From the NCBI RefSeq assembly GCF_000024985.1, contig NC_013523.1, positions 434,001-498,000 of the forward strand: DNA of 64,000 nt, written 5' to 3'. Made by a program: the position numbers and the translations under genes. Numbering within the stretch: position 1 is the first letter of the stretch; each line of letters begins with the position of its first letter. This document shows positions 7,920 through 58,709 of this stretch, in pieces. The notes under the pieces were generated by a model. That model made no database searches. It saw only the letters and a program-made list of their open reading frames with translations, and was not told where the DNA came from. The stretch is from Sphaerobacter thermophilus DSM 20745 (GTDB lineage Bacteria > Chloroflexota > Chloroflexia > Thermomicrobiales > Thermomicrobiaceae).

Positions 7920-7983
7920 GCGCAACGTGGCGCGCGGGCGTCCCTGCCGGGCTCAATCCGCCGAGAATGGCCCTCATCCCCGA

Positions 7984-8065
7984 CCCCTCTCCCAACCTTG
8001 GGAGAGGGGAGCGACCCGTCCTGGCCTCCCGCGCTTGATGCCGGTGGCTTCAGCCCCGGGCACAT
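7984..8065. repeat. Palindromic intergenic repeats (CCCTCTCCC family and part of a CCCGGGGCT family)
   Basis: The perfect palindrome at 7984-8009 has 12-bp arms (CCCCTCTCCCAA) around a 2-nt centre and is preceded by a CCCTCATCCCC tract. About 30 bases later, GGCTTCAGCCCCGGGCAC is a single arm of a second repeat family found at 44.7 and 53.1 kb. These lie in the 371-bp gap between soxR and the next gene; the rest shows only a possible TACAAT -10 at 8160-8165. Confidence 0.8.
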
Positions 8066-15794: not shown

Positions 15795-15854
15795 GGGCGC
15801 TGGTGGGCCACACCACCTGACGCTGGCCTTTTCCCGCCACCCGCCGCGGCTTCT

Positions 15855-15932
15855 GTCATCCTGAGCGAAGCGAAGGATCTCCGGCGCACGCCGTCGCCCC
15901 AGCAAGAGATCCTTCGCTTCGCTCAGGATGAC
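15855..15932. repeat. Inverted repeat of the GTCATCCTGAGCG family
   Basis: Two perfect 27-bp arms at 15855-15881 and 15906-15932 begin GTCATCCTGAGCGAAGCGAAG and face each other across 24 bases. The same family recurs at 18886-18943, 44434-44491, 45179-45214 and as a single arm near 57330. The element lies between two convergent genes and has no T run. Confidence 0.85.
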
Positions 15933-34568: not shown

Positions 34569-34607
34569 GCGTCGATCTGCTCCCAGGAGCGGCCCTCACC
34601 CCCGGCT

Positions 34608-34629
34608 CCTCTCCCAATGTTGGGAGAGG
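34608..34629. repeat. CCCTCTCCC-family palindrome
   Basis: Perfect arms CCTCTCCCAA and TTGGGAGAGG with a TG centre, preceded by CCCTCACCCCC, between convergent genes. Confidence 0.8.
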
Positions 34630-34684
34630 GGAGCTGTCCACTGGGGTCAGGCGGTGCGCCGGTTGACGCCCGCCTTCCGTGTCC

Positions 34685-37752: not shown

Positions 37753-37834
37753 CCACGTCCTCGAACGCCTGGCAAATCCGGCTGGACGATCGGAGCCCAC
37801 ATCCGGACAACACGGTTTTCACCACCCGGCCTGC

Positions 37835-37856
37835 GCCCGGGGGTTTACCCCCGGGC
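37835..37856. repeat. GC hairpin, fragment of the CCCGGGGCT repeat family
   Basis: Perfect arms GCCCGGGGGT and ACCCCCGGGC with a TT loop lie after rph and overlap the last codons of the convergent membrane protein gene. It could act as a bidirectional terminator, though no T run follows. Confidence 0.65.
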
Positions 37857-38282
37857 ACGGGCCACTGCGCTCGGGTCCATCCGTCGCAGGGCGATCAGGG
37901 CGGCGATGAGCGCGATCTCCAGTGCCGTTGCGGTGAGATCCAGCGCGCCGACCGGCAGCCGCACGAAGGTGATCATCATCGGCAGTCCCACCAGCCGGGT
38001 GAAGGCCCAGATCGCCACGATGACGACGTTGAGGACCAGCCCCAGCCGCAGCGTCCACCTGCGCGGGCCGAACAGCAGATTCACCGCCAGAGCGCCCTGT
38101 GCCATGGCGACAAGGAGGAAGAACATCCCGCGCAGCGGGGCGAGGGCGAACTCTCCTGGGAGTACCCAGAGGTGGATCAACTCTGACGCGAACGCCAAGC
38201 CAGCGGCGGCGACGGCGAGGCGACGGGTGGTGATCTTCGGCGACGCGATCCGTTCGGCGTCTCGTCGCGTGGTCACAGTCAT
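37845..38282 (-). CDS. Small membrane protein downstream of the multicopper oxidase
   Basis: A 145-residue protein with four predicted helices (from about residues 25, 49, 74 and 110), beginning MTVTTRRDAERIAS. The ATG at 38282 is one base beyond the multicopper oxidase stop (TGAGATG), so the two are translationally coupled; an in-frame TTG at 38291 is an alternative. Unknown family. Partnership with the copper oxidase is inferred from coupling. The C-terminal codons overlap a repeat hairpin. Confidence 0.65.
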   Translation of the reverse strand: MTVTTRRDAERIASPKITTRRLAVAAAGLAFASELIHLWVLPGEFALAPLRGMFFLLVAMAQGALAVNLLFGPRRWTLRLGLVLNVVIVAIWAFTRLVGLPMMITFVRLPVGALDLTATALEIALIAALIALRRMDPSAVARARG

Positions 38283-44416: not shown

Positions 44417-44538
44417 ACCGCCGTCTCGTCCGTGTCATCCTTCGGTGCGTGGCCGATCCACCGTGAGATCCTCCGCTCCGCTCAGGATGACAGCGGTGCG
44501 GGAGCTGCCGGAGAGGAGACGAGATTCATGCGTCAATG
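44417..44538. repeat. Composite repeat element, copy 1
   Basis: Outer ends CCGTCTCGTC (near 44421) and GGAGACGAGA flank an inner GTCATCC (44434-44440) and GGATGAC (44485-44491) pair. A very similar element in the same orientation occupies 45162-45262. Both are non-coding. Confidence 0.65.
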
Positions 44539-44545
44539 GCATCCT

Positions 44546-44992
44546 CCCCGGGCTGACGCGGAGAAGCCCACGGAAGCGGGCTGGGGGCCGATCGTGGTTC
44601 ACCCCCGGTGATGGGATCCCGCCGCTCGGCGCGTGCCCGGCACACATGGAGATTGACGACTGACATGGATGTACGCGGTCGGCGCGTGCCCGGGGGTGGA
44701 TGGCGTGAAGGATCCTACGCCGTGGTCCGTGCCCGGGGCTAAAGCCGCCGGGCTGAATAATGAAAAGCCCACTGAAGGGGCTCCCTTTCCCACACGTCGG
44801 CTGACTCCATCCGGCCACCAACTGGGCGCTGCGTCCCCAGCCCCTTCAGTGGGCTTCGCCTTCTCAGCCCGGCGGCTTTAGCCCCGGGCACGCGCCACGG
44901 CTTGGGATCCTCGCGCCACCCCCGTACTCTTCGTCGTTCCCAGCCGGTTTCAGCCGGCTTTCGTTGTCAGCCCGGCGGCGTTAGCCCCGGGC
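44546..44992. repeat. Nested palindromic repeat island
   Basis: An inner inverted repeat has arms of about 51 bases at 44731-44781 and 44839-44889, starting GCCCGGGGCTAAAGCCGCCG. The arms match over the first 26 and last 18 bases with a variable middle. Outer arms of a related family lie at 44546-44585 and 44939-44992. A similar nested arrangement occurs at 52949-53320. No protein-like frame was found in this stretch, which with its neighbours fills the gap from padR to hisB. Confidence 0.75.
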
Positions 44993-45161
44993 ACATGTCG
45001 CGACGCGGCGACCTTCCCGCTACCCTTCCAGGGCATGTGCCGAGCGGCGGGATCCTTGACGAGGGTGTGAGTCCTGTCCCACCCCAGCCAGCTAATGCCG
45101 GCTGTCGTGGTCAGCCGGGGGTAAAGGAGCTTGACGACAAACCGTGGGACATGGACCGGTC

Positions 45162-52811: not shown

Positions 52812-52948
52812 CGGGTTCGCTGGCGGGCGAAGGCGTTGGCTGGAGCCGAGGCGAACTCCACCTGACAAACACAACGAAGTCCGCCCACGACGATTGACGG
52901 ATTGTTCGGGTCTATGGCGGTGGCGCGTGGGTCCCCACGCCCTGGCCT

Positions 52949-53320
52949 GTGCCCGGGGCGCAAGCCGCCGGGCCGACACGGAGAGCCGGCTGAAGCGGGC
53001 TGGGAACAACCGCAAGGGTACGGGGGTGGTGGGCGGAGTACCGTAGTCGGCCCGTGCCCGGGGCTAAAGCCGCCGGGCTGAGAAGGCGAAGCCCACTGAA
53101 GGGGCTGGGGACGCTGGACCCGGTGGGATGCCGGATCGGCTCCGCCTGCGCGTGGCCATCACAGCCCCTTCAGTGGGCTTACCAACATATCAGCCCGGCG
53201 GCTTTAGCCCCGGGCCGTCACCACGCGGTAGCACCCTTATATGCAAAATCGACGCCGATTGACCCCTAGCCCGCTTCAGCCGGCTCTCCGTGTCAGCCCG
53301 ACGGCTTGCGCCCCGGGCAC
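52949..53320. repeat. Nested palindromic element, outer and inner arms
   Basis: Outer arms of 53 bases at 52949-53001 and 53268-53320 differ at only two positions and start GTGCCCGGGGCGCAAGCCG. Inside them is a second inverted repeat with arms at 53056-53107 and 53162-53215, starting GCCCGGGGCTAAAGCCGCCG. The gap between the carboxypeptidase and hspR-like genes (52812-53678) holds this element and no credible protein frame. Confidence 0.85.
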
Positions 53321-53609
53321 GCGCCACGGCGCGGAAACCTCAATACCAACCACTCCGGACCCCCAGCCTCCAGTAACGGATCCTCCTACCTCGCTCCAGG
53401 CCGGGACTGACTTGCGTCCCGCTCCCGCGCCACTGCCACGGACCCGATCAACCTGCCAAACGGCATCGGGCGAAGGCCATGGCGCCCCCGGCAACCCGTC
53501 GTGGCCGCCATCGTAGCCTCGTCTGCTGGGCTCTGAGCGGTTGACACCGACGGGCTGGATCGGGTAGCACGCGGGCATGGATCCCACGTGCCCGATTCGG
53601 CAACGCACA

Positions 53610-57268: not shown

Positions 57269-57328
57269 GGCGAAATCGCTCTACGGCCGCCCAGCCGTGC
57301 CCTGCGTATCCGCTGGCGCTTCCGTGTC

Positions 57329-57391
57329 GTCCTGAGCGGAGCGAAGGATGACATCGCTTGGAGTTCCCCTCTCCCAAGGTTGGGAGAGGGG
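57329..57391. repeat. Repeat pair: GTCATCCTGAGCG single arm and CCCTCTCCC palindrome
   Basis: A single arm GTCCTGAGCGGAGCGAAGG near 57330 is followed by the perfect palindrome CCCCTCTCCCAA-GG-TTGGGAGAGGGG at 57366-57391 and a GGGGGTGAGGG tract. These fill the 326-bp gap before the DUF4349 gene; the rest shows no gene. Confidence 0.8.
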
Positions 57392-57594
57392 TCGGGGGTG
57401 AGGGCCGCTCTCGCAGGTCCGGGCGCGGACACCCGTGCTCGTGTCGTCGTCACGCCGTGGACAACGGCTCGACGGAGAACCAGGACGTGGCGTGGCGGGG
57501 TTTGCGCGCCGTGTCGCGGAACAAAGGGCCGCCGCCGGGCGTCATCCTGTCAGGGCGGGCCGGACTGGCCTGCGGTGGCGTGAGGAGGAGACAG

Positions 57595-58491: not shown

Positions 58492-58562
58492 CGCCGTCCC
58501 GGGGAGCGGAGCACGCGGAGCGCGGGCATCAGACGGACCGTCGCCCGGTCCCTGAGATGGCT

Positions 58563-58588
58563 CCCCTCTCCCAAGGTTGGGAGAGGGG
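58563..58588. repeat. CCCTCTCCC-family palindrome
   Basis: Perfect arms CCCCTCTCCCAA and TTGGGAGAGGGG with a GG centre, followed by GGGGGTGAGGG; identical in core to the copy at 57366-57391. Confidence 0.8.
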
Positions 58589-58709
58589 TCGGGGGTGAGG
58601 GCCACCCGCACAGCTCAGGACGAGGCGAGGACGCCCGCGTTCCTGGGTTCTTCACCCCGTCCGGAGCCGCTTTGCCATGGTTGCGCTCCGGTTGAACGCA
58701 CACAAACGG

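Follow-up and report, generated by a model that had tools for sequence, protein, structure and literature searches.

The locus at 52949-53320 raises the question of how one inverted repeat comes to lie within another, and whether its two layers are one element or two. The window that contains it, meaning the whole stretch of DNA that was analysed, is 64,000 nucleotides long and corresponds to G000:C1:434001-498000 of a genome of 3,993,764 bases in two contigs. The nested repeat is intergenic at its own locus, with a D-Ala-D-Ala carboxypeptidase-like gene on one side and hspR on the other, and consists of four units in the order > > < <. The outer left arm (52949-53001, forward strand) is a B-type unit made of a hairpin that we call H, a linker and a second hairpin, AGCCGGCTGAAGCGGGCT; it scores 41 bits with the B profile and 20 with the A profile. 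The outer right arm (53268-53320, reverse strand, B profile 42 bits) is of the same type, and its reverse complement differs from the left arm at 2 of 53 positions, exactly as the first-pass annotation had it. A repeat search lengthened this outer pair to 75 nt at 88% (52930-53004/53265-53339), and outward extensions adjoin both arms, at 52921-52948 on the left, conserved in part among copies with the consensus ...GGATCC..CGCCGTGGC, and at 53321-53343 on the right.

Within these arms lies an inner inverted pair of a related but different family, spanning 53054-53217. Its left arm (53054-53109, forward strand) is an A-type unit of the kind that flanks the Y1 transposase gene, its right arm (53161-53217, reverse strand) is an A-type unit with another linker, and the loop between them occupies 53110-53160; the repeat search matched the two arms over 26 nt (53056-53081/53190-53215) and again over 19 nt (53089-53107/53162-53180), both at 100%. 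Spacers at 53002-53053 and 53218-53267 separate the B from the A units, with start-to-start distances of 105 on the left and 103 on the right. The separate inner repeat with arms of its own, noticed earlier, is present, and so is the CCCGGGG core that arms of different families were said to share: the first hairpin (CCCGGGG...) is common to both layers, while the second is AGCCGGCTGAAGCGGGCT in the outer and AGCCCACTGAAGGGGCT in the inner one. Folded as single-stranded DNA, 52930-53340 reaches -181.8 kcal/mol, whereas 100 shuffles gave -102.7 (sd 4.8) and not one of them folded as well (z -16.5). The nested repeat at 52949-53320 is not there by chance.

The same parts recur elsewhere in the window and in the genome. 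A second A pair is found at 44729-44891, with a B unit to its right (44942-44994, reverse strand) at a distance of 103 and a further B unit 142 beyond that one, and no B unit was found to its left; a lone hairpin H, with one mismatch to GTGCCCGGGGnTnnAnCCCCGGGCAC, lies at 37833-37858. Each unit consists of two small hairpins, namely H (GTGCCCGGGG...GGGC), a 26-nt hairpin common to the A and B families, and, after a linker, a family-specific second hairpin, and one element is two such units in inverted order. Counted from GTG to CAC, the A element is about 163 nt long, and B measures 372 nt outside. The core pattern, allowing up to 3 mismatches, matched the genome 123 times (60 + 63), the pattern for the outer-type second hairpin 66 times and the closed-hairpin pattern 137 times on each strand, this last being near-palindromic so that most of its sites are counted twice; the reversed patterns gave no match in any of the three cases. 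A BLAST search of the nested repeat against its own genome, in which 40 of 197 first candidates were scored, returned at least 111 matches.

We then have, from A and B profiles built from classified units and run with a score floor of 19 bits over 288 kb around the listed copies, at least 279 arms (144 A, 135 B) in at least 109 clusters, both counts being lower bounds. The first-pass annotation had considered that all copies might be two-layered, as a single element would be. The complete form, >B >A <A <B, is indeed the commonest in the 288 kb, and accounts for only 23 of the 109 clusters; 11 hold A pairs alone, eight hold B pairs alone, and the remainder are partial or mixed. Clusters are sparse on C1 between about 0.5 and 1.75 Mb, where 1.25 Mb contains 5 of the 67 C1 clusters. 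The orientation of A shows no strand or replichore bias, as far as a split into half-chromosomes can show.

The position of the inner element is fixed. Among 72 tight inverted pairs, 64 are A-A, seven join one A to one B arm and one is B-B, and the distance between the two arms is 165-169 nt in 56 of the 64 A-A pairs. Outside 51 of these 64, a B arm of the same sense occurs within 60-300 nt, on both sides in 25, on the left only in eight and on the right only in 18; the 13 A pairs without B on either side include at least four owing to an IS that cuts one arm. B-A distances fall between 95 and 110 in 56 of 76 cases, against five expected if they were even over 60-300. Conversely, 18 of 32 B-to-B pairs hold an A pair, nine hold no unit, four hold one A arm and one holds a B and an A arm. 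The inner element has one place in the outer, at H, about 103 nt from each B arm. In G001, the genome of a sister species, where 22 loci were chosen by likeness to the window repeat, a B arm likewise stands outside 20 of 23 A pairs.

What occupies this place when A is missing can be seen in the nine B pairs that have no A or B unit inside, whose sequences we read by eye. A whole or nearly whole H is present in four (C1:1879467, C2:143098, C2:502386 and C2:415493), a damaged H in C2:1247745 and half an H in C2:580408 and C1:2364170; C1:1861525 has no H inside, and C2:1252217 has other sequence. At C2:502386, the distance from the B arm to the start of H is 103, matching that of A at other loci. 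H is also found on its own: eight closed H sites are perfect, and around six of them no A or B unit scores 19 bits or higher over about 400 nt to each side.

Orthologous sites differ in content. Twenty loci were compared between G001 and this genome after repeat masking, and six pairs aligned. At C1:156803, a single H here corresponds to H-B-H-A-H in G001, with flanks whose BLAST matches reach to within 33-35 nt; at C2:1057454, where the left flank is short because of a contig end, a single H here again corresponds to H-B-H-A-H in G001, with a 53-nt segment added; and at C1:1861525 a B pair here (181 nt) has an A pair as its counterpart in G001 between the same flanks. C2:658754, C2:143098 and C2:502386 also differ from G001, and were excluded as clean cases because they are rearranged. 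At the locus of 52949-53320 itself, both layers are present in G001 with about 53 nt in addition, and the orthologous gap of about 180 nt in G002, also a sister species, contains no repeat. No insertion could be polarised among the sites compared: the H copies form direct repeats, a deletion between two of which would equally leave a lone H, and the lone-H sites could be either pre-insertion sites or products of such deletions. Every segment is bordered by H on either side, and neither an end of the element nor a target-site duplication could be fixed. The proposal that one mobile palindrome had inserted into another is partly supported: two different families are nested, each is also found solo and one of them is mobile-like, while the change itself may have run in either direction.

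The mobile-like layer is A. The sole Y1_Tnp match in the genome is located between two A units ordered as in the inner pair of 52949-53320, and no B unit lies within 300 nt of them. Its product, encoded at C1:86809-87285 and about 144 aa long when counted from the likely start, scores 78.7 against the NCBIfam IS200/IS605 model (cut-off 55) and 27.6 against the RAYT model (cut-off 80), and it can be aligned to IS200-type transposases of solved structure over their HxH and C-terminal Tyr stretches. The G001 copy of this gene, tnpA, is 94% identical and is also found between A units; the stop counted in its span precedes the likely start. In G002 the match covers residues 73-147 (59%), a B unit adjoins its 3' end, and the neighbouring gene is too close to leave room for the missing half, which makes it a truncated copy in the same place as judged by its neighbour. 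An apparent gyrB, named by eye, adjoins tnpA in G000 and G002. The flanks of tnpA also match in G001, so the gene seems to be inherited in place.

Homologues of tnpA were found in 17 of 61 genomes searched. At 11 of 20 loci of tnpA and its homologues, an inverted repeat matching exactly over at least 21 nt, in a search that stopped at 28 nt, is present on either side of the gene within 250 nt, and these gene-flanking repeats have other letters in other genera. Ten of the 20 loci have an A or B profile hit (E up to 0.01), and several of those without one are partial gene matches. A search of six other genera-level genomes found neither second hairpin in five of them and a single A match in the sixth. 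In 19 aligned units, nine pairs are predicted, four of which have changes on both sides; together with the matching hairpins around the homologues, these paired changes indicate that the two-hairpin units travel with the transposase clade. No intact transposase belonging to the B family itself is present in this genome. The link from TnpA to A is one of association, not of activity, and we infer from it that TnpA moves A and that an ancestor of TnpA moved B.

We favour, as the probable explanation, two REPIN/BIME-like families of the genus that TnpA mobilises, A being nested in B at the H they share. The arms would fold on single-stranded DNA, for example at the replication fork, where TnpA would recognise the hairpins, cut beside them and move the piece. 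The piece would land preferentially at copies of H that the genome already contains, among them the one in a B element's loop, and A would in this way come to lie at a fixed distance inside B. The position of A points to H as the target, and the order would be B first and A second. More tentatively, and with doubt on our part, the transposase could be a single-strand enzyme that prefers the folded hairpins of its own earlier copies, H then being a shared docking joint at which related miniature elements stack, at fixed distances, into layered palindromes, in the manner of a cassette-like array.

An alternative that we consider unlikely is that the clusters are mosaics in which recombination or replication slippage at H, and not a transposase, exchanges, duplicates and removes A, B and other segments. 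H is present at every joint, B is one-sided in 26 of 64 A pairs, A and B pairs replace each other between the same flanks at C1:1861525, tandem runs of short segments led by GTGCCCGGGG are found, and chimeric pairs of one A and one B arm make up seven of the 72 tight pairs; double-foot REPs can originate from a central deletion between inverted REPs (PMC6006769). Such shuffling explains the one-sided and swapped sites well, yet it leaves unexplained the dispersal to 109 clusters, the link of A arms to tnpA and the matching hairpins around homologues in other genera. Recombination at H may act together with transposition under the TnpA-driven nesting that we favour.

It is improbable that B-A-B is one composite transposon copied whole. 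The complete form is the commonest (23 of 109 clusters), the B-to-B length is 365-385 in 13 of the 18 pairs that hold A, the arrangement recurs in G001 and, in the pattern lists, at two places in G002 (B, A, A, B at C69; B, A, A at C93), and A lies inside each of the 12 B pairs read in G001, at loci chosen by similarity to the window repeat. Against this stand the 11 clusters of A pairs alone and eight of B pairs alone, the A units around tnpA without B within 300 nt, and the orthologous sites that differ in content. Nor do A and B vary jointly across loci: a Mantel comparison of their distances gave r -0.11 (n=39; 1653 of 2000 permutations as high), with r 0.16 for A against left B alone (n=25; 176 of 2000) and -0.17 for right B, in a test of little power, since its positive control, the two halves of A, reached an r of only 0.20 (n=53; 40 of 2000). 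The single composite element is disfavoured. Finally, a selected structural signal without mobility (a terminator, RNA hairpin, nucleoid or gyrase site) would suit the very stable fold (z -16.5) and the intergenic position between the carboxypeptidase-like gene and hspR, but is very hard to credit given that the repeat is absent from the orthologous G002 gap, that five of six other genera-level genomes lack both second hairpins, that no T run follows the hairpins, which speaks against a transcription terminator, and that the four Rfam matches (E up to 1) are nowhere near a gathering score.

The outer arms of 52949-53320 are 94.5% alike, third among 42 B pairs in two species, and resemble their G001 counterparts at 72-82%, the G001 arms being 68.97% alike inter se. 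This suggests that at the window locus the outer arms may have undergone arm-to-arm correction or renewal. Homogenisation of arms as a general rule is rejected, as the mean likeness of B arms is 0.780 at the same locus and 0.787 between different loci.

Among known systems, the closest likeness is to the REPINs/BIMEs with their RAYT (TnpA-REP) of Pseudomonas fluorescens and E. coli. As in those, inverted pairs of short imperfect palindromes are dispersed in many copies (here 123 cores and 109 clusters) with several subfamilies per genome, and a single Y1 transposase gene is flanked by the same units; two inverted, hairpin-forming units with a short spacer, by which such elements are recognised, are found here. 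The differences are that the units here have two hairpins each, that the foot consensus is GTGC and the canonical GT[AG]G is absent, that the transposase falls under the IS200/IS605 and not the RAYT model, and that nesting is the commonest arrangement and occurs at a fixed place. In SBW25, REPINs inserted into or beside REPINs are described from five regions (PMC3116915), and atypical REP classes 2.6 and 3 without the GT[AG]G motif are also on record (PMC6006769). The nested repeats are REPIN-like, and by their foot motif they are not REPIN members. Among the papers covered by the literature search, none brings Sphaerobacter, palindromic and transposase together.

The IS200/IS605 elements and their non-autonomous derivatives share with our elements a single-domain HUH/Y1 transposase that lies between hairpins, copies that lack the gene but keep the same ends, and subterminal hairpins at both ends. 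IS200/IS605 elements insert next to a short target without duplicating it, TnpA carrying out cleavage and transfer on single strands. Our elements differ from this family in that the gene is single-copy with a conserved place in the genus and that the arms are inverted and made of two hairpins.

REP elements rank among the most common repeats of bacteria, and to our knowledge the mechanism of their spread is not settled. One small transposase gene and two families of second hairpin co-exist here in one genome and its sister species, with sites in four states: lone hairpin, B only, A only and both. These co-existing states make it directly testable whether TnpA moves such hairpins and where they land, and also whether the preference of the enzyme shifted from one hairpin to the other.

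Several other insertions and repeats accompany these families. An element inserted in H at G000:C1:127973-128953 carries a transposase gene of the IS982 family (141 bits against a cut-off of 130, for the protein of one copy). Among 367 arms scanned, 15 have the end sequence of this element next to AAAGCC, and all 15 belong to this genome. This recalls ISPpu9, an IS inserted into REPs (PMC8450116); the IS982-family insertion is a separate and later event, distinct from the nested repeat. Another palindromic element, about 140 nt long and with ends ATGATGTTTC.../...GAAACATCAT, lies inside the B second hairpin in three clusters (C1:2549944, C1:631477 and C2:491178), and a longer form of B has an extra hairpin, GGAGTGCGGCGGCC..GGCCGCCGC(TTTGGTAT), that adds about 71 nt. 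The tandem segments led by GTGCCCGGGG, about 46 and 53 nt long, are found outside the right arm at C1:90740 and at loci L126, L137 and L144 of G001, so that H-led pieces besides A and B exist. Two more repeats occur in the window: a dispersed palindromic one, (G)TCATCCTGAGCGAAGCGAAGGATC, at 15853-15932, 44465-44505 and 57312-57349, and one of the CCTCTCCCAACCTTGGGAGAGGGG type at 7968-8012, 34587-34635, 57362-57410 and 58560-58604.
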